Origin: Halosegnis rubeus | GTDB lineage: Archaea > Halobacteriota > Halobacteria > Halobacteriales > Haloarculaceae | Direction of reading: 5' to 3' | NCBI RefSeq assembly: GCF_009184545.1 | Contig: NZ_QJOW01000001.1 | Location: 620,001 to 684,000 of the forward strand | Length of the DNA: 64,000 bases | Shown: piece by piece, positions 32,497-44,310 of the stretch | Numbering within the stretch: the stretch's first letter is position 1 | How the letters are laid out: every line of letters begins with the position of its first letter | Notes under the pieces: generated by a model | Database searches by the model: none | Told to the model about the DNA's origin: nothing | Seen by the model: only the letters and a program-made list of their open reading frames with translations | Program-made: the position numbers and the translations under genes

Positions 32497-32569
32497 GTGT
32501 CGTTTTTGTCCCCGCAGTGACCGAGAGCCGGGGGTCTCGCGCTTTTCGAGTACGAAACGCGGAATGTGA

Positions 32570-32584
32570 TTGCGAATTTCGTAG
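32570..32584 (+). promoter_or_regulatory. 15-bp element shared with carA, upstream of carB
   Basis: TTGCGAATTTCGTAG occurs here and, on the other strand, at 41455-41469 upstream of carA. Here it ends 43 bases before the carB ATG and 12-13 bases before a TATA-like CTTATTA (32597-32603). The core CGAATTTCG is an inverted repeat with a one-base centre. The position just upstream of the BRE/TATA suits an activator or a bound Lrp-type regulator. Confidence 0.65.
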
Positions 32585-32627
32585 TACTTCGCCGGGCTTA
32601 TTACGATGTACGAACTCCCTCGTCGTA

Positions 32628-35600
32628 ATGAGCGACGAGACCGAGGACAGGACCATCCTCCTCATCGGCAGTGGACCGATCCAGATTGGACAGGCCGCCG
32701 AGTTCGACTACTCCGGTGCGCAGGCGTGTCGCGCACTCCAGGAGGAGGGCGCGCGGGTCGTCCTCGTCAACTCGAATCCGGCCACCATCATGACCGACTC
32801 CGAGATGGCAGATAAGGTGTACGTCGAACCCATCACCGTCGACGCCATCTCGGAGATCATCGCGACCGAACAGCCCGACGGCGTCATCGCGGGGCTCGGC
32901 GGCCAGACCGGGCTGAACGTCACCGCCGAACTCGCCGAGGAGGGCGTCCTCGACGAGTACGATGTGGAGGTCATGGGCACGCCGCTCGACACCATCTACG
33001 CGACGGAAGACCGCGACCTCTTCCGCCAGCGCATGGAGGCCATCGGCCAGCCGGTCCCGCAGTCGACGACCATCGAGATGGACGAGGGCGAGTCCGTCAC
33101 CGACCTCACGACCGAGGGCCTCCAAGACCGCGTCGACGAGGCGGTCGAAGCCGTCGGCGGGCTACCGGTCATCTCCCGCACCACCTACACCCTCGGCGGC
33201 TCCGGCTCCGGCGTCGTCGACGACATCGACGAGCTGTACGAGCGCGTTCGCAAGGGACTGCGTCTCTCTCGCAACTCCGAGGTGCTCATCACCGAGTCCA
33301 TCTCGGGATGGGTAGAACTGGAGTACGAGGTGATGCGCGACGCCGACGACTCGTGTATCATCATCTGCAACATGGAGAACATCGACCCGATGGGTATCCA
33401 CACCGGGGAGTCGACGGTCGTCACGCCCTCGCAGGTCATCCCCGACGAGGGCCACCAGGAGATGCGCGACGCCGCGCTCGGCGTCATCCGCGAGCTCGGG
33501 ATTCAGGGCGGCTGTAACATCCAGTTCGCGTGGCACGACGACGGCACCCCCGGTGGCGAGTACCGCGTCGTCGAGGTGAACCCCCGCGTCTCCCGTTCGT
33601 CCGCGCTCGCATCGAAGGCGACCGGCTACCCGATTGCCCGCGTCACCGCGAAGGTCGCGCTCGGGAAGCGCCTCCACGAAATCGACAACGAGATCACCGG
33701 CGAGACGACCGCCGCCTTCGAGCCGGCGATCGATTACGTCGTCACGAAGGTGCCCCGCTGGCCCATCGACAAGTTCGGCGACGTGGAGTTCGAGCTGTCG
33801 ACGGCGATGAAATCGACCGGCGAGGCGATGTCCATCGGCCGCACCTTCGAGGAGTCGCTGCTGAAGGCGTTGCGCTCCTCGGAGTACGACCCGGCGGTCG
33901 ATTTCGCGACCGTCGATGACGAGACGCTCGAAGCCGAGTATCTGACCAAGCCGACGCCAGACCGTCCGTACGCGCTGTTCGAGGCGTTCTATCGCGGCTA
34001 CGACACCGACGAACTCGTCGAGCTGACCGACATCCACGAGTGGTACGTCGAGCGCTTCGGCAACGTCACAACAGCGGCGAAGCAGGCGATGGAAGGCGAC
34101 ACCGACGCCGCGACCGCCATCGGCTTCACGAACCAGGAGGCGACGGCGCTGGCCGGCGGAGAGTTCAACGACACCCACGCCTCGTGGCTACCGGCGGCCC
34201 TCCACGTCGAGACCGGCGACGAGCCGGACGAGGTGGCGGCCGACGGTGCCGGTGCCGGCGCGAAGGTCGAGACCGTCGAGGAGACGGCGATCGACCGCCG
34301 CTTCAAGCAGGTGGACACCTGCGCCGGCGAGTTCGCTGCCTCGACGCCGTACTACTACTCGGCGCGCGAGCCGCTCTCGGAAATCGCCCGCGACGAGGTG
34401 AAAGTCGACACCGACGCCGAGAGCGTCGTCGTGGTCGGCGGCGGTCCGATTCGCATCGGGCAGGGTGTCGAGTTCGACTACTGTGCCGTGCACGCGGTGC
34501 GTGCCCTCCGCGAGCAGGGACTCGATGCCCACGTCGTCAACAACAATCCAGAGACGGTGTCGACTGACTACGACACCTCCGACGGACTGTTCTTCGAGCC
34601 GGTCACGGCAGAAGAGGTCGCCGACGCCGTGGAGGCGACGAACGCCGACGGCGTGATGGTGCAGTTTGGCGGTCAGACCTCCGTGAACGTCGGCGAGCCG
34701 CTCGAACGCGAACTCGACCGCCGCGGTCTCGACTGTGAGATTCTCGGCACGAGCACCGAGGCGATGGACCTCGCGGAGGACCGCGACCGCTTCAACGTCC
34801 TGATGGACGAGATGGGCATCGCACAGCCGGAAGGCGGCACGGCGACCTCCGAGGACGAAGCCTTGGACCTCGCCGACGACCTCGGCTACCCGGTGCTCGT
34901 GCGCCCGTCGTACGTGCTCGGCGGCCGCGCGATGGACGTGGTCTACTCCGACGCGGAGCTGAAGGAGTACATCGAAGAGGCGGTGCGCGTCTCCCCGGAC
35001 AAGCCGATTCTCGTCGACGAGTTCCTCGCCGACGCTGTGGAACTCGATGTCGACGCGGTCGCCGACGGCGAGGACGTGCTCATCGGCGGCGTGATGGAGC
35101 ACGTCGAAGCTGCGGGTGTCCACTCTGGCGACTCCGCGTGCATGATTCCGCCCCGTTCCCTGTCGGCCGAGACCCTTGAGCGCGTGCGCGAAGTGACCGA
35201 AGACATCGCAACCGCGCTCGACACCGTCGGCCTGCTGAACGTCCAGCTCGCGGTCCGCGACGGCGAGGTGTACGTGCTTGAGGCGAACCCGCGCTCCTCG
35301 CGTACGGTCCCGTTCGTCTCGAAGGCGACCGGCGTCCCGATTGCGAAGCTGGCGGCGAAGGTGATGGCCGGAGCGTCGCTCGCCGACCTCGGCGTCCACG
35401 AGCAGGTGCCGGAACACGTCTCCGTGAAGGAGGTCGTCCTGCCGTTCGACCGCCTGCCCGGCTCTGACCCGCGTCTCGGTCCCGAGATGAAGTCCACCGG
35501 CGAAGTGATGGGAACCGCCCGCTCGTTCGGCAAGGCGTATCTGAAGGCGCAGGACGCCACCGGCAAGCCGATTCCGACCGAGGGGACCGCGCTGCTCGAC

Positions 35601-35918
35601 ATCGAGACGCTGCGCGGCCTCTCACAGAAGAACGAAGACCTCTCGGACATCGAGGAGCGTCTCGTCCGCAACTTCGAGGTGACTACGCCCGACGACTACG
35701 ACGACCTCGCGAGTGCGGTCCAGCGCGGCGAACTCGATTTGATCTGCTCGCGCGACCGCGACCTGCTCGAAACTGCGGTCGAAGAAGAGATTACGTACTT
35801 CTCCACGGTGCCGAGCACCCGCGCCGCGATGGAAGCCATCGAGACGAAAGACGAACCGCTCGACGTGCTCGCCCTGTCGGAGCGTCCGACAGAGCGTCGC
35901 GATTGGGGGACGTTGTGA
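32628..35918 (+). CDS. carB: Carbamoyl-phosphate synthase large subunit
   Basis: A 1096-residue enzyme making carbamoyl phosphate for pyrimidines and arginine, using ammonia from CarA. Both ATP-grasp halves are present: the first opens [23 protein letters not shown] (about 8-30), the second [21 protein letters not shown] (about 600-620). Each is followed by its pre-ATP-grasp and ATP-grasp segments ([18 protein letters not shown] and [18 protein letters not shown]). An MGS-like allosteric domain ends the protein ([27 protein letters not shown]). An acidic insertion follows the first half. I use the ATG at 32628; the frame is open to 32517 but that part is promoter. carA is 4.4 kb away in the opposite direction. 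Confidence 0.97.
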   Translation: [1096 protein letters not shown]

Positions 35919-35938
35919 CCGTAGCCTGGGGCTGAGTC

Positions 35939-36640
35939 TCAGTTCGCTCGCCGCGCGAGCAGTCCGGCGCCGAGGAGTCCGGCCACCGCACCGACGGCGG
36001 TGAAGCCGGGCTGTCCGGCGGCGGTCGTTCCATCCGGACCGCTCGGACTCGCCGTGACCTCGAGTCCGTCGAGTGACGTGTTCGCACTCTAGCGGAGGGT
36101 ACCGGCCACGTCAGCGTCAGGGGTCGGCATCGCCGACAGCCGGTAGCCGTCGGGTGCCGTGACGACGAACTGTCGGTCGGGACTGTAGTCGCTGGCGAAC
36201 GGCTCTGCGAGCGTCAACTGCTCGCCGTCGACCGCCGCGAGATTCGTCCACGTCGCGGAGAGTTCGACCACGCCGGTGTCCGACTCCGTCCGCACGGTCG
36301 CGGTCGGGTCCGTTATCTCCATCTGTCGACCCGTCTCCGCTGCGGCCGACGACGCGACGCCGTCGAGCCGGCTCGCGAACGAGTCACGCATCTCGTTTAC
36401 GTTCGTCTGGTTTGCCCGCAGCGTCTCGAACGCCTCGCGCTCGCTGTCGGTCGTCAGGTCGAACGTCAGCCGGAGGGTCACCTCGGCGTCGCCGTCGGCC
36501 GCGAGGTCGACGACGAACGCCTCACCGGGGTGTGAATCAGCCGCTGTCGCGGTACCGGCTCCGCTCGCGACGACTGCGATGACCAGCGCGGCGATACCGG
36601 CTCGCCGTAGTGCCGTTCCGACTGTGGTGTCACGGTTCAC
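35939..36640 (-). pseudogene. DUF7345-like secreted protein with PGF-CTERM tail, interrupted by in-frame TAG
   Basis: A signal peptide (about 1-34, RRAGIAALVIAVVASGAGTATA) is followed by a beta-rich extracellular domain to residue 183, then TAG at 36089-36091. Reading on in the same frame gives ~49 more residues ending GQPGFTAVGAVAGLLGAGLLARRAN, a textbook PGF-CTERM archaeosortase signal (PGF, membrane helix, basic end), and a TGA at 35939. The paralogue at 38676 has, at the same spacing after PTPD, a Trp where this gene has the stop (T-V-R-W against T-L-R-TAG), so a TGG to TAG change is the simplest reading. If translated only to the TAG the product would be secreted but not anchored. Start overlaps the upstream gene by 4 bases. 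Confidence 0.75.
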
Positions 36641-38481
36641 TGTTCCGTCTGGCTCGCCGTGTCCGTCTCCTCGTCGTCCACTTCGTCGTCGTCTTCGTCC
36701 GCCTTGTCATCGTCATCGTCGTCTTCGTCGTCATCTTCCTCGGTCTCGGCTTCGTCGTCCGCTTCGTCTTCATCGCCGGCGTTCGCGTGGTCCGGCGGGC
36801 CGCGCTCACCGTCGTCGTCATCGCGCTCCGGCGCGCGCTCGCTTCGATTATCGTCGCCTTCACCGCGGTCGTCCTCGTCACCCTCGTCGTCTGCGTCGTC
36901 GTCGCTGTGACCGGGGGCCTCGTCGCTACGGCCACGGTCACCGTTGTCACCGGCGTGTGGACTCTCCGTCATCGAGAGCGTCCCGTCGGTGAGTTCGTAC
37001 TCGAACTCCGCCTCGAACTCGCCTTTCACGATTTCCACTTCGAACGACTCCGTACCGTTCGGAACGGCGAACGAGACGGTCCCGTTCGCGTCGGTCGTGC
37101 CGACCTGCTCGTCGTTCGCGTAGACGGACGCGCCGGCCACACCGCTCCCTTCGTACTGGACCGTCGCGGTGACCGTGTCACCCTCGAGCGTCGCGTCCGC
37201 AGTCAGGTTCCGGTACACCTCGTCGTCGTCCTCGCCGAGTTCGAACTCGAGTTCACCCTCGCCGGCTTCGAGTTCGACCTCGCCGCTCTCGGGCAGCGTC
37301 ACCGACACGGTGCCGTCCGCACCGGTCGTGCCGACCGGCTCACCGTTGAGCGTCACCGTCACGTTCGACGCCGCCTCGCCGTCTGCGAGCGCGCGGACGG
37401 TGATGGTGCTGTTCGGTGCGATGTCGCCCTCGGCGACGACGAGTGCGAGTTCACGCTCTTCGTCTTCTTGTTCGGTGTCGTCTTCGTCGTCACCGCGTTC
37501 GCCGGCTTCCTCCGGCGGGCCGCGTCCGGGGTTGTTCTCGCTCGCCTCGTCCGCGTTGGCCGGACCCTTCTGTCGCGTGGTCGATTCCAGTTCCACGACC
37601 GTGCCCGCGGAGCCGTCGACGGTCGCGCTGGCCTGTCCGACGGTCGTGTTCGTGTTCACGTGGAAGCGGAACTCGTAGTTGCCGTCCTCGCTGTCGATCC
37701 GGCTGTTCACGAGCCGCCACTGCTTCTCGACCGTCGGGAGCGCGTCGCGTGCGGTATCGAGTGCTGTGCTCTGGTTGACGGTCAGGTTCGCGGACTCGTC
37801 GCCCGGACGATTGAGCTCACGCGACTGTTCGCCGTCCTCGCTTTCCACCTCAATGGTGAGTCCGTTCGCCGACTCGATTTCGACTTCGCCCTCGCGCTCG
37901 CCGGTGAACTGCTGGAGCAGCGCCGACGCGCCCGTGCCGCTGACGCTGTCGAGGCTATCGACCGCGCCGTCGAGCGCCGACTCGTTGAACCCCGCCGCGC
38001 GGAGTTCAAGCGCCGAGAACGCGTTCGAGCGCTCCGACAGTGCGTCGTAGGAGGCGAGCAGGTTCGACGCTCGAGAGTTCAGCGTCGCGATGCGCTGTGC
38101 GTACTCGGATTTCGTCAACTCGCCGTCCTCGTAGGCCTCGGTGGCTGTCTCGTAGGCGTCGGTGATGCGGTTTGTCCGCTCTTCGAGCGCGGCTGCTCGG
38201 TTAGCGAGCGCTCGTGCACGCGCCTCCTCGCTCGCGTTGTCGTACTCCACCTCGAATTCGGTCTCTTCGACCTCGCTCTGTACGTCGTCGCTCGTCACCG
38301 CCAGCACGGTCGAGAGCTGCTGGCCGGTCGTGACGTTGACGCTGCTGTTGTCGTCCTGTTGCAGCTCGGTCAGTTGGTCTGTGGTCGATGCGTCCGACGG
38401 GGTCACTGCCCCCACACCGCCCGCGGCCCCTGCGGTGAGCATGAGCATCGCGAACAGTGTCGCGGTCAGTTTGCGAACCAT
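36637..38481 (-). CDS. Large secreted DUF7096-like protein with acidic tail
   Basis: A 614-residue exported protein. Signal peptide about 1-25 (VRKLTATLFAMLMLTAGAAGGVGAV), then a long helical region (about 60-180, with EARARALANRAAALEERTN and similar). Two Ig/carboxypeptidase-regulatory-like repeats follow, each with G-E/Q-x-V-G-T-T-x-A-N/D-G-T-V-S, at about 375-430 and 445-500. The last ~110 residues are almost only Asp, Glu, Arg and Gly. I recall the N-terminal half as DUF7096. It carries many N-x-S/T sites and no sortase signal. Start at 38481 rather than 38511: a TATA-like box lies about 27 bases upstream on this strand. Same-operon overlap with the interrupted PGF-CTERM gene suggests a shared surface role. 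Confidence 0.8.
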   Translation of the reverse strand: MVRKLTATLFAMLMLTAGAAGGVGAVTPSDASTTDQLTELQQDDNSSVNVTTGQQLSTVLAVTSDDVQSEVEETEFEVEYDNASEEARARALANRAAALEERTNRITDAYETATEAYEDGELTKSEYAQRIATLNSRASNLLASYDALSERSNAFSALELRAAGFNESALDGAVDSLDSVSGTGASALLQQFTGEREGEVEIESANGLTIEVESEDGEQSRELNRPGDESANLTVNQSTALDTARDALPTVEKQWRLVNSRIDSEDGNYEFRFHVNTNTTVGQASATVDGSAGTVVELESTTRQKGPANADEASENNPGRGPPEEAGERGDDEDDTEQEDEERELALVVAEGDIAPNSTITVRALADGEAASNVTVTLNGEPVGTTGADGTVSVTLPESGEVELEAGEGELEFELGEDDDEVYRNLTADATLEGDTVTATVQYEGSGVAGASVYANDEQVGTTDANGTVSFAVPNGTESFEVEIVKGEFEAEFEYELTDGTLSMTESPHAGDNGDRGRSDEAPGHSDDDADDEGDEDDRGEGDDNRSERAPERDDDDGERGPPDHANAGDEDEADDEAETEEDDDEDDDDDDKADEDDDEVDDEETDTASQTEQ

Positions 38482-38550
38482 ATCTCCCCCAAGTAGCGCT
38501 ACCCATATCAACCGGGTCGACGCTGGCGGTAGTTTGCGGTCGATTTCGAA

Positions 38551-38570
38551 CGTTTGCAGACGTTTGCAGA
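38551..38570. repeat. Tandem 10-bp direct repeat in divergent promoter
   Basis: CGTTTGCAGA is repeated twice without a gap (38551-38560, 38561-38570) and followed by the related CGGTTGTACC; another GTTTGC lies at 38533. One helical turn per unit would place identical faces on one side of the DNA. It is 70-90 bases upstream of the minus-strand gene start and about 105 bases upstream of the plus-strand gene start. Confidence 0.6.
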
Positions 38571-38592
38571 CGGTTGTACCCCGTCGCCCGGT

Positions 38593-38615
38593 GTTGATTT
38601 CCCAAATATATCAAC
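38593..38615. promoter_or_regulatory. Inverted repeat and AT-rich segment in divergent promoter
   Basis: GTTGAT (38593-38598) and ATCAAC (38610-38615) flank an AT-rich 11-base centre that includes AAATATAT. A further TATA-like GATATTTAT (about 38645-38653) is about 27 bases before the ATG at 38676, consistent with a leaderless transcript. The repeat may bind the regulator encoded there, by inference. Confidence 0.4.
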
Positions 38616-38675
38616 TGAATTTCAATTGCTTGCACACGTCTCAAGATATTTATCTCGGACGTTAGTAGCTCGGCT

Positions 38676-39698
38676 ATGAGACGGCTGGTCGTCGTGGCAA
38701 CCCTGCTGCTCGTGGCCAGCACCATCGTCGTCGGGGGCGTCCAGCAGACGCCCGATGCCGACAACACCGTCACGCGCATCGCGGTCCAGCCGGACGGCGA
38801 CGCCGAGTGGACGGTCACTGTTCGAACGCGGCTCGAAACCGAAGAGGAGCTGCGCGCGTACGAGGAGTTCCAGTCGCGGTTCAGAGCCAACACCTCCGAG
38901 TACGTCTCGCCGTTCCGAACCCGCATCGAGGGTGTCGTCGCGTCGAGCGCGACCGCGACCGACCGGGAGATGCGCGCACGGAACGTCACGGCCGCGACGG
39001 ACATCCGCCAACTCCCCCGTCGGTGGGGAGTCGTCACCTACTCGTTCACGTGGACGCAGTTTGCAGCCGCCGACCGGGACGTCCTCGCCGTCGGTGACGT
39101 GTTCGCGGGGGGCTTCTTCATCGCCGAGAACGACACGCTCGTCGTTACGACGCCGCCGGAGTACACGCTCGCGGAGGTCGAGCCGACCCCCGACAGCCGC
39201 GACGGCGACACGGTTCGGTGGCGTGGCCAGCGCGATTTCAGTGACGGTCGCCCGGCGCTCCGGCTCGAACCGGCCCCAGCGGAAACGACGACGGGGACGG
39301 CGGACGGCGGTGGCGGGCTACCGCTCGCAGCGCTGGGCGGTCTGCTCGCTCTCGTCGCCGCAGCGCTCGGCGTGTATCTGTACCGCGGTCGGGACGGGAG
39401 TACTGGGGCCGAGCCGCCGGGGACCGATCGGCCGGACGCTGGTCCCGGTTCCGGTCCAGTACCGAACGGGGCGGAAACGACGACGGCAGCGTCGGACCCG
39501 ACCCTCACGGACGGTGAGCGGGTCGAGCAACTGCTCGCGGACAACGGCGGCCGGCTGAAACAGGGAGACATCGCGGAGGCGTTCGAGTGGTCGGCCTCGA
39601 AGACCTCTCGCGTGGTCTCGCAGCTGGCCGACGACGGGCGGGTCGAGAAGCTTCGCATCGGACGCGAGAACGTCGTCTCGCTCTCCAAGACGGAGTGA
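38676..39698 (+). CDS. Membrane-anchored winged-helix regulator with extracellular DUF7345-like domain
   Basis: A 340-residue one-component sensor layout: signal/anchor helix (about 5-21), extracellular beta-rich domain (about 25-205) resembling the product of the interrupted gene at 35939, one membrane helix (about 212-234), a disordered Pro/Gly linker, and a cytoplasmic winged helix (about 276-338: TLTDGERVEQLLADNGGRLKQGDIAEAFEWSASKTSRVVSQLADDGRVEKL). I recall these as DUF7345 plus DUF7343. The DNA-binding end is inside the cell, so a surface signal could be passed to DNA without a kinase. Divergent from the DUF7096-like gene; the shared gap has a tandem repeat. Confidence 0.85.
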   Translation: MRRLVVVATLLLVASTIVVGGVQQTPDADNTVTRIAVQPDGDAEWTVTVRTRLETEEELRAYEEFQSRFRANTSEYVSPFRTRIEGVVASSATATDREMRARNVTAATDIRQLPRRWGVVTYSFTWTQFAAADRDVLAVGDVFAGGFFIAENDTLVVTTPPEYTLAEVEPTPDSRDGDTVRWRGQRDFSDGRPALRLEPAPAETTTGTADGGGGLPLAALGGLLALVAAALGVYLYRGRDGSTGAEPPGTDRPDAGPGSGPVPNGAETTTAASDPTLTDGERVEQLLADNGGRLKQGDIAEAFEWSASKTSRVVSQLADDGRVEKLRIGRENVVSLSKTE

Positions 39699-39773
39699 CC
39701 GCGACTCTGCCGGCCGGTCGCGACGCACTCGATGTCTCCCCCACCGACCTTTTGTGTCGCCCGTTATGAAACG

Positions 39774-40286
39774 GTGGCGTATGAATTGACGGAAATCGTC
39801 ATTACGGCGACCGCGGCAGCGACCGCAGCGGTGGCGGGTTGCTCCGGAACCAGCGAGAGCCCCGGCGGCGGCGGAAACGAGACGGTCGCCGCGGAGGACC
39901 CCTCTGCCGGTGTGACTTCCCGTCAGTCCCTACGGATGACCGTCGGTGAGAGCGTCGCCGGCTCCGAGTGGACCTCGATCGCGGCCGAGTATCCGCGCGA
40001 GCACTTTACGCTTCAGTCGGCACAACACGAGGAGCTGTCGCTCGGCGTCGACACGACGGGCGATGGGACCGTCAACGAGTCGTTCGACGAATCGAACGTG
40101 AGCGGTGCAAACAACAACGCGTACTCGTTCAACATCGGTCTCGACACCGGGTACGAACTCCAGCAGGGAGACGTCGTCGTCGTCGAGTACCCCGCCGTCG
40201 ACAATCCCGACGAGGCGGGCGAGTACGAGGTCGACCTGACGCTCAACGACGAGCAGTCGGCGACGGGCACGCTTTCGATTCAGTAA
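39774..40286 (+). CDS. Putative lipoprotein, start uncertain
   Basis: About 170 residues. The frame contains a hydrophobic segment ending in a lipobox (ITATAAATAAVAGC), then a Gly/Ser-rich spacer and a beta-rich acidic domain (DDTGDGTV-like Asp-Gly turns; GYELQQGDVVVVEYPAVDNPDEAGEYEVDLTLN). No ATG is in frame near the start; GTG at 39774 is the best in-frame choice. The expected ATG (39766 MKRWRMN, or 39781) lies in the +1 frame and hits TGA at 39787, so a one-base deletion may have broken the natural start and its usual basic region. Probably surface anchored; function unknown. Confidence 0.6.
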   Translation: MAYELTEIVITATAAATAAVAGCSGTSESPGGGGNETVAAEDPSAGVTSRQSLRMTVGESVAGSEWTSIAAEYPREHFTLQSAQHEELSLGVDTTGDGTVNESFDESNVSGANNNAYSFNIGLDTGYELQQGDVVVVEYPAVDNPDEAGEYEVDLTLNDEQSATGTLSIQ

Positions 40287-40344
40287 CGGCCCCCTGAGAA
40301 GCGATTTCCTGCGTCGCGTTCCGTGTGCTGACCGACGACAGTGA

Positions 40345-41403
40345 TTACGCCGCCAGCTCGGCGTCCTTGGCGAGCGCGAGCACGTCGTCGAAGAAGTCCA
40401 GCGAGTCGTTCGGACCGGGATTCGCCTCGGGGTGGTACTGGCGGGTGAGCACGTCGAGCTCGTCACTCTCCAGCCCCTCGGGGGTGTCGTCGTTGACGTT
40501 CACCTGCGTCACTTCGAGCTGGCCGGGTTCGGAGACGGTGTAGCCGTGATTCTGGGTCGTCATGACGACGCGTCCGGACCGGAGGTCACGCACCGGCTGA
40601 TTGACGCCGCGGTGACCGAAGTCCATCTTCTCGGTCTCGCCGTCGAGCGCGCCCGCGATGACCTGCTGGCCGAGACAGATGCCCGCGAGTGGCACCTCGC
40701 CGACGAACTCCTCGACGAGCGCGTGGGCGGCGGTGAAGTTCTCCGGGTCGCCCGGCCCGTTCGAGATGAACAGGATGTCGGGGTCGAGATGCTCCACGTC
40801 GGCGGCGGTCGCGTCGTACGGGAGCACGTCGACGACGGCGTCACGCTCCACGAGCGAGGACGTGATGGAGCCTTTCGCGCCACAGTCGACCAGCGCGACG
40901 TGAGGGCCGTCTCCGTTCGGATTGTGCGTGTGTCGCTTTGCGACGGAGACCTGTTGGCCGATGTCGGTGTGTTCGCTCATCCCCTTGCACGCCGACAGCT
41001 CCTCGCGGGCGGCCGCCTCGGTGGCGTCAGGTCCGGCGGCGATACCACACTTCATCGCCCCCTCCTCGCGGATTCCGGTGACGAGGTCGCGGGTGTCGAG
41101 GTGGTCGATTGCTGGCACGTCCTCCTCGGTGAGCCACTCGGCCACGTCGTCGGTGAGTTCGCGCGCGACGACCGCACGCGGGTGGACGCGGTCGGACTCG
41201 AACCGCTCCTCGCGGACGCCGTAGTTCCCGATGAGCGGGTACGAGAAGGTGAGCACCTGCTCCTCGTAGGAGGGGTCGGTCAGCGACTCCTCGTAGCCGG
41301 TGTAGGCGGTCGTGAAGACGAGCTCTCCGCGGGTGGTCCCCGGTGCGCGGCTGCGGGCTTCCACCACACGGCCGCTCTCCAGTGCGACGTATGCCGTTTC
41401 CAT
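40345..41403 (-). CDS. carA: Carbamoyl-phosphate synthase small subunit
   Basis: A 352-residue glutaminase subunit that feeds ammonia to CarB. The N-terminal CPSase_sm domain opens ETAYVALESGRVVEARSRAPGTTRGELVFTTAYTGYEESLTDPSYE. The class I amidotransferase has its nucleophile in VPLAGICLGQQVIAG (Cys about 241) and the His/Glu pair in RQYHPEANPGPND. The start at 41403 is fixed by the conserved opening. TATA-like GATTAACA on this strand lies about 27 bases upstream (leaderless). The 15-bp carA/carB element is 52 bases before the ATG. Confidence 0.97.
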   Translation of the reverse strand: METAYVALESGRVVEARSRAPGTTRGELVFTTAYTGYEESLTDPSYEEQVLTFSYPLIGNYGVREERFESDRVHPRAVVARELTDDVAEWLTEEDVPAIDHLDTRDLVTGIREEGAMKCGIAAGPDATEAAAREELSACKGMSEHTDIGQQVSVAKRHTHNPNGDGPHVALVDCGAKGSITSSLVERDAVVDVLPYDATAADVEHLDPDILFISNGPGDPENFTAAHALVEEFVGEVPLAGICLGQQVIAGALDGETEKMDFGHRGVNQPVRDLRSGRVVMTTQNHGYTVSEPGQLEVTQVNVNDDTPEGLESDELDVLTRQYHPEANPGPNDSLDFFDDVLALAKDAELAA

Positions 41404-41454
41404 TACGAGACTCGTACTCTCGCACCGTTGTTAATCGTTCGGTTCGAAGCGAAG

Positions 41455-41469
41455 CTACGAAATTCGCAA
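41455..41469 (-). promoter_or_regulatory. 15-bp element shared with carB, in the carA-lrp divergent promoter
   Basis: On the minus strand this reads TTGCGAATTTCGTAG, identical to the copy at 32570-32584. It begins 52 bases before the carA ATG and lies ~20 bases upstream of its TATA box. On the plus strand it ends 36 bases before the lrp ATG, over or near the lrp promoter. A CTTCG follows in both copies, directly here and after two bases at carB. Confidence 0.65.
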
Positions 41470-41504
41470 CCATCAAGTGTTGCCGGTCGAACTCTCACAC
41501 CTCA

Positions 41505-41918
41505 ATGGACGACCTCGACCGGTCGATACTGAACATCCTGCGGCGAGACGCACGCACGCCCTACACCGAGATTGCAGAGCGGGTCGGCACCTCCGAGGGG
41601 ACGGTCCGCAACCGCGTCGAGCGTATGCTGGAAGAGGGCGCTATCGAGCGATTCACCGTCGCCACCCGAACGGGCAACGTGAAGGCGATGGTCGAGGTCG
41701 GGGTCGCCGTCGACGTGGACACCCGCGCCGTCTCGGAGTCGATGGCCGACTGGGACGCCGTCGATTACGTCTGGCAGGTGTCAGGCGACGAGGATATCGT
41801 CCTCGTCGTCGACGCGACCGACACCAGCGCCTTGAACCAACTCATCACCAAGGCGCGGGAACTCGACGACGTGGTCTCGACGAAGACGCGGCTCATCCTC
41901 AACGAACGGCTCGGCTGA
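41505..41918 (+). CDS. Lrp/AsnC family transcriptional regulator
   Basis: A 137-residue one-domain-pair Lrp protein: winged helix at about 1-60 (MDDLDRSILNILRRDARTPYTEIAERVGTSEGTVRNRVERMLEEGAIERF) and the RAM/AsnC ligand-binding and oligomerisation domain at about 65-135 (KAMVEVGVAVDVDTRAVSESMADWDAVDYVWQVSGDEDIVLVVDATDTSALNQLI). Divergent from carA; the gap carries the element repeated upstream of carB. I infer control of carA, carB and itself, perhaps by an amino acid or pyrimidine ligand. The gap to carA is 101 bases. Confidence 0.95.
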   Translation: MDDLDRSILNILRRDARTPYTEIAERVGTSEGTVRNRVERMLEEGAIERFTVATRTGNVKAMVEVGVAVDVDTRAVSESMADWDAVDYVWQVSGDEDIVLVVDATDTSALNQLITKARELDDVVSTKTRLILNERLG

Positions 41919-43731: not shown

Positions 43732-44310
43732 ATGAGTACGGACTCCGACCCGACCGGCGCGGTCAACGAAGACGCCGCCCACGAGAACGCCGGCCAGGAC
43801 GTCATCGCGGTCGACGCCGACGACAACGAGGAGCGACTCGTCAACCGACTTGATGCCCACACCGGCGACGGGATTCGCCACCGCGCGTTCACCTGTCTCG
43901 TCTTCGACGGCGACGGCCACGTCCTGCTCGGCCAGCGCGCGCCGGGTAAGCGGCTCTGGGACACCCACTGGGACGGCACCGTCGCCTCCCACCCGGTCCA
44001 GGGCCAGACGCAGAAGGAAGCCACCCGACAGCGGCTCGAAGAGGAACTCGGGGTCACCCCCGACCAGTACGACGACCTCCGCGTGACGGACAGGTTCGAG
44101 TACAAGCGTTACTACCTCGAAGAGGGGCTCGAGTGGGAGGTGTGTGCGGTCCTCAAGTGTACGCTCGACGACCGGACCCTCGACCCCGACCCCGAAGAGA
44201 TTGCCGGCACGATGTGGGTCCCGTACGAGCGGCTCCACGAGCATCCGCGCTGGTACCGTCAGCTCCGACTGTGTCCGTGGTTCGAGATCGCGATGCGGCG
44301 CGACTTCTAA
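43732..44310 (+). CDS. idi: Isopentenyl-diphosphate delta-isomerase (type I)
   Basis: A 192-residue Nudix-fold isomerase interconverting IPP and DMAPP for the isoprenoid membrane lipids and carotenoids. An acidic N-terminal extension of ~40 residues precedes the fold. The active-site cysteine is in HRAFTCLVFDGD (about Cys-55) and the metal-binding HWDGTVASHPVQGQTQKEATRQRLEEELG follows, with a second catalytic Glu in EEGLEWEVCAVLKC. A TATA-like TAATTAA lies about 30 bases upstream. It overlaps the convergent hydrolase gene by 4 bases. Type II (Fni) is absent from the window. Confidence 0.94.
   Translation: MSTDSDPTGAVNEDAAHENAGQDVIAVDADDNEERLVNRLDAHTGDGIRHRAFTCLVFDGDGHVLLGQRAPGKRLWDTHWDGTVASHPVQGQTQKEATRQRLEEELGVTPDQYDDLRVTDRFEYKRYYLEEGLEWEVCAVLKCTLDDRTLDPDPEEIAGTMWVPYERLHEHPRWYRQLRLCPWFEIAMRRDF

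Follow-up and report, generated by a model that had tools for sequence, protein, structure and literature searches.

A palindromic element shared by the carA, carB and lrp/trh3 promoters of Halosegnis rubeus, the putative operator of an Lrp/AsnC regulator

Two identical 15-bp elements in a 64,000-nucleotide stretch of Halosegnis rubeus DNA (hereafter the window) are putative operators of the Lrp/AsnC regulator encoded at 41505, through which carA, carB and the regulator gene lrp/trh3 would be controlled together; judged from the sequence and its relatives, this reading has a probability of roughly 0.9. The preliminary description of this DNA had proposed such a regulon, in which the Lrp product controls carA, carB and itself, and the proposal is supported: it matches the published Trh3 circuit of Halobacterium salinarum, and the motif is both specific and conserved. 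The predicted linkage between regulator and site is firmly supported. The regulator gene appears to have been lost twice, independently, and in each case the site is missing from carA and carB alike.

The element in the carB and carA–trh3 promoters

The 15-mer TTGCGAATTTCGTAG occurs exactly at 32570-32584 on the plus strand, before carB, and at 41455-41469 on the minus strand, between carA and lrp, as the preliminary description had located it. Its 13-bp palindromic core, TNCGAAWTTCGNA, is not common elsewhere, with only two exact matches in the 2.66-Mb genome (12 contigs), both in car promoters; the expectation from base composition for exact genomic copies of the 15-mer is about 0.0008. When up to three mismatches are allowed, the 15-mer has 5 matches in the window where 0.63 would be expected, a number reached in 0 of 100 shuffles. 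Chance recurrence is ruled out by these match counts, the shuffles and the base-composition expectation. Allowing one mismatch to the core adds 15 genomic places, of which 13 were inspected (all except C9:49708 and C10:36784); nearly all of the 13 lie in reading frames, and no obvious promoter of an arginine or pyrimidine gene is among them, so that no wider regulon emerged from these places. The genome-wide scans were pattern searches, and a position weight matrix (PWM) was used on the window and on related loci.

The gene carB (32628..35918, plus strand) encodes the large subunit of carbamoyl-phosphate synthase, with the Pfam domains CPSase_L_D1/D2/D3. The core of its putative operator (32571-32583) is centred 21 bases upstream of the TTATT box, in a proximal slot that is conserved in relatives, and its PWM score of 22.4 out of 27.0 is the joint best in the window. 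Between the site and the TATA-like box there are 13 bases, which hold the BRE, and the distance of 43 bases from the end of the site to the ATG at 32628, as first described, is correct. The box itself, TTATTACGA, with a conserved CGCCGGGC before it (32598..32606, plus strand), is near-invariant in the carB alignment; the TATA-like element of haloarchaea is a TTWT box (PMC4983044). Further upstream, TACGAAACGCGGA (32551..32563, plus strand) marks a decayed distal slot, centred 41 bases before the TTATT box, in which one intact half, TACGAA, is still readable; the two slots are thus 20 bp apart, or about two helical turns. The carB reading frame is open as far back as a GTG at 32517, and the additional stretch (32517-32627) covers both the operator and the TATA box. 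The true start is most likely the ATG at 32628, in agreement with relatives; since both the relatives and the promoter layout place it there, automatic annotation may add a false N-terminal extension.

At the other locus, carA (40345..41403, minus strand; small subunit, Pfam CPSase_sm_chain and GATase) and the regulator gene are transcribed divergently, with 101 bp between them. The putative Trh3/Lrp operator O1, common to both genes, is the exact 15-mer at 41455..41469 on the minus strand (core 41456-41468). The BRE/TATA region of carA, CTTCGAACCGAACGATTAAC (41430..41449, minus strand), corresponds to the consensus CTTCGAAaGCAAcgcTTAT of relatives, and its TATA lies 31 bases before the ATG. 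The site is separated from the TATA-like box by 20 bases that include the BRE-like CTTCGAAC; it precedes the BRE-like CTTCGAA by a few bases, and its centre is about 28 bases from the TATA. The gap from the site to the carA ATG (41403), previously given as 52 bases, measures 51. Towards the regulator, O1 precedes the lrp ATG (41505) by 35 bases and is 3-4 bases away from TCAAGT (41473..41478, plus strand), which, from its distance to the ATG, would be the TATA-like box of lrp/trh3; ACTTgA is conserved on the carA strand in relatives. The region between carB and carA (36637-39698) encodes a long acidic, low-complexity protein (624 aa) on the minus strand as well as a DUF7345/DUF7343 protein whose C-terminus is MarR-like, both unrelated to the operators.

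The regulator gene (41505..41918, plus strand) encodes a protein of 137 aa with the Pfam domains HTH_AsnC-type and AsnC_trans_reg: an N-terminal AsnC-type helix-turn-helix at residues 1-41 (PF13404, 65.9 bits against a cut-off of 27) and a C-terminal RAM ligand-binding domain at residues 65-134 (PF01037, 48.4 bits against a cut-off of 25). The protein can be aligned along its length with archaeal Lrp proteins of solved structure and, on the basis of synteny and class-wide conservation, is a putative orthologue of H. salinarum Trh3 (VNG1816G). With a threshold of E <= 1e-25, 389 of 391 haloarchaeal genomes have a Trh3 orthologue, in a near-single-copy group, and the recognition helix SEGT(V/I)RNRV is invariant in 135 orthologues; at E 1e-20, a sample of the phylum yielded no match in any genome outside the haloarchaea.

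Conservation of the element and its loss with the regulator

When the upstream regions of relatives were compared, the site proved to be conserved at both carA and carB. In these relatives the element is a longer, perfect palindrome with the consensus TTACGAAWTTCGTAA, so the two copies in the window are slightly degenerate. This consensus is symmetric around a central W, as is typical of the 13-15-bp palindromic, A/T-centred operators of the Lrp/AsnC family. Exact matches to it occur in 98 of the 194 haloarchaeal genomes listed, usually once and rarely twice, and the reversed control pattern has 0 matches in each of these 194. Of the exact matches in other genomes, 30 were located, and every one of these belongs to carA/trh3 (26) or carB (4). 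Across 2.03 Mb of related sequence, the PWM gave 243 hits scoring at least 14, and 231 of them stand no more than 150 bases upstream of one of the three genes (carA, carB and that of the regulator). Because car loci are over-represented in this sample, the genome-wide pattern searches are the stronger test of specificity. Weak sites elsewhere in the related loci were set aside, as those inspected lie mostly in coding sequence.

At carA the position of the site is almost fixed. At least 11 of 13 positions match in 125 of 126 distinct haloarchaeal carA promoters, and in 119 of the 125 site-bearing promoters the site starts at -65 or -64 from the ATG. The regulator gene lies beside carA in 79 of 80 haloarchaeal carA loci, mostly with a gap of exactly 102 bp. 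In one genus (L158, L159 and L162) trh3 is found 650-790 bp from carA; the carA site is in place there, and trh3 has its own TACGATCTTCGTA/CA at -39, with a second near -90. That the two genes possess separate sites when they part supports the view that the shared site serves both.

For carB, a site scoring at least 10 was found in 70 of 72 distinct promoters, in slots -41 and/or -21. The two promoters below this score are L134, which comes from a Trh3-less genome, and L194, which was rejected as an exception: its start codon is misplaced and a perfect site lies just outside the scanned stretch. The distal slot is used by most genomes and is occupied in 69 of the 72 promoters. Unlike most relatives, in whose Trh3 circuits the distal site (-41) is strong, the window carries the strong site in the proximal slot (-21), as do its close relatives L016 and L018, with a weaker or half-site in the distal one, which in the window is decayed. 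In two genomes (L185 and L192), the carB matches contain one in-frame stop codon inside the matched stretch.

The gene trh3 is missing from two of the 391 genomes, which belong to different families: G216 (the same genome as G194 and the source of L024, Natronomonas aquatica, with identical carB coordinates) and G129, whose genome is a single contig. Their carA and carB promoters lack the site, the best PWM scores there being at most 4.6, compared with 22.4 in the window. In both, carA lies beside idi, which in the window (43732-44310) is located beyond trh3 and two ABC-transporter genes, so the intervening segment appears to have been deleted. The absence of trh3 and the two ABC-transporter genes (L024 9000-10100; L221) apparently goes back to the same segment having been deleted twice, independently. 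In both genomes a trh3 deletion so close to carA could have removed the carA site mechanically, but not the site at the unlinked carB. In G129, carA and carB are about 850 kb apart, and a deletion beside carA thus cannot explain the loss of the carB site. Two pattern matches in G194 were dismissed as sites, both being inside reading frames of unrelated genes.

The same genomes bear on the idea that the element is a basal promoter, a BRE/TATA context common to highly expressed biosynthetic genes and no regulator site at all. The element does adjoin BRE and TATA, and CGAA-type sequences resemble the haloarchaeal BRE CGAAA (PMC4983044). However, it is palindromic and almost confined to car promoters, it occupies two different slots at carB, and it is gone from both Trh3-less genomes, although the carB core promoter of G216, CGCCGGGCTTATTACGATG, is intact and its TATA-like box is retained. 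The operator is therefore separable from the basal promoter, and this alternative is extremely improbable. Another Lrp paralogue or a different regulator could instead bind the sites, in place of or alongside the 41505 protein: the genome holds eight further Lrp-like matches, and in H. salinarum paralogues share target promoters (PMC4236453). Yet paralogues (best 38% identity) remain in G194/G216 though the sites are gone, the sites track Trh3 and its recognition helix is invariant, which makes a substitute or partner regulator very unlikely and favours the 41505 protein. One Lrp paralogue with 31% identity in G194 (L134; L127, contig C27:12181-12546) lies about 1.3 kb downstream of carB and may be an old neighbour or a replacement.

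The published Trh3 circuit and related systems

In H. salinarum, the Lrp/AsnC protein Trh3 is encoded divergently from carA, and ChIP has revealed its binding at the carA, carB and trh3 promoters (Ashworth et al. 2014, PMC4177876). The window has the layout of that circuit, with the regulator divergent from carA and carB nearby on the opposite strand. As in strain NRC-1, carA and carB lie on opposite strands under separate promoters, and the same cis element is present at the carA, carB and trh3 promoters. Since this circuit has already been published, and its conservation reported in 18 species (PMC4177876), the present finding is a rediscovery in another haloarchaeon. The ChIP binding belongs to the published work on that relative; the sites, their fixed positions, their near-exclusive placement at car genes and their loss together with the regulator come from the present analysis. 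The exact palindrome, the positional constraint, the exchange of slots at carB, the duplication of sites and the double co-loss extend that account, as far as the available part of PMC4177876 goes. Two published observations count against the operator reading: trh3 RNA correlates weakly with that of carA (0.45) and carB (0.40) in H. salinarum (PMC4177876), and deletion of trh3 produced no growth phenotype in the published assay (PMC4177876; PMC4236453).

Additionally, among Trh3 orthologues whose specificity has been measured, TvFL3 of Thermoplasma volcanium has been named the closest, and the car promoter sequences agree with its in vitro profile (PMC4177876); its effector is listed as Lys (PMC2995911). 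This protein comes from a different class of archaea. Its SELEX optimum, in the work of Yokoyama et al. in 2009, is reportedly TACGA[AAT/ATT]TCGTA, which coincides with the consensus of the haloarchaeal sites described above.

A broader reading, towards which the evidence leans, is that Trh3 would be a dedicated, class-wide regulator of only the carA/trh3 and carB promoter regions, keeping the two subunits in step through operators that are under strong positional selection and that swap slots, duplicate and are lost together with it. If true, this would contrast with the broad, overlapping ChIP target sets reported for H. salinarum paralogues. In Escherichia coli, carAB is an operon under the control of ArgR and PurR, which coordinates the subunits of carbamoyl-phosphate synthase with arginine and pyrimidine supply. 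The regulators there are unrelated, and the haloarchaeal genes have two separate promoters with one type of operator instead of an operon. The car genes would thereby offer a clean natural case in which a trans-acting regulator does the job of an operon, co-regulating two subunits of one enzyme that have promoters of their own. With so sharp a motif, a fixed geometry and two natural losses, the Trh3 circuit already published can be tested by single-base operator mutants, and in vitro work on the mechanism of archaeal Lrp proteins gains a well-defined site.

Proposed mechanism and the second palindrome

In the mechanism proposed here, Trh3 dimers or oligomers would bind the 13-15-bp palindrome just upstream of the BRE/TATA of carA and carB. 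Because the same site abuts the trh3 core promoter, the two subunit genes and the regulator would be controlled together. The archaeal Lrp activators Ptr2, LysM and Ss-LrpB share a dimer site located a few bp upstream of the BRE at a tightly constrained position, together with additional upstream sites (PMC2995911), and at carA and carB the operator likewise precedes the BRE by a few bp and hardly varies in position. This similarity favours activation of the recruitment type, by which Trh3 may tune both genes together; the known activators have other targets, and activation, shown or strongly indicated for them, is what we infer here. At trh3, where the site abuts the TATA-like TCAAGT, occlusion and autorepression are suggested, although Trh3 might also act positively there. 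Trh3 might be modulated by a basic amino acid (Arg/Lys) or Gln, and Arg, Gln or Lys has been predicted as the effector of the H. salinarum protein (PMC4236453).

A candidate second palindrome, O2 (TACGAGTCTCGTA, 41404..41416, minus strand), abuts the carA ATG and, with a PWM score of 11.7, ranks fourth in the window. Its role might lie in wrapping or repression, or it might be the context of the start codon. O2 gives some substance to the alternative that Trh3 mainly represses carA and carB, with Arg, Lys or pyrimidine signals as co-repressor, O1 and O2 wrapping or looping the promoter and blocking RNA polymerase. An O2-like TACGNATCTCGTA abutting the carA ATG is conserved, with scores of at least 10 at this position in 89 of 123 carA promoters; the spacing of 52 bp between O1 and O2 is about 5 helical turns; and LrpA of Pyrococcus furiosus exerts repression from a site that borders the TATA box on its downstream side (PMC2995911). 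On the other hand, O1 is in the activator position, counterparts of O2 are partial at trh3 with no clear one at carB, and an O2-like TACGAATCCGGTA (score 4.6) persists in G216, which is without Trh3. O2 may therefore reflect start-codon context and, given this persistence of a degenerate form, is not accepted as a definite second operator. Predominant repression is a doubtful alternative to activation, and it concerns only the sign of regulation, leaving the identity of the sites as it is. In many relatives a similar CGCATCTCG occurs just before the trh3 ATG (about 41493-41505 in the window), and O2 and CGCATCTCG could represent either a second operator or a leaderless start context common to the two genes.
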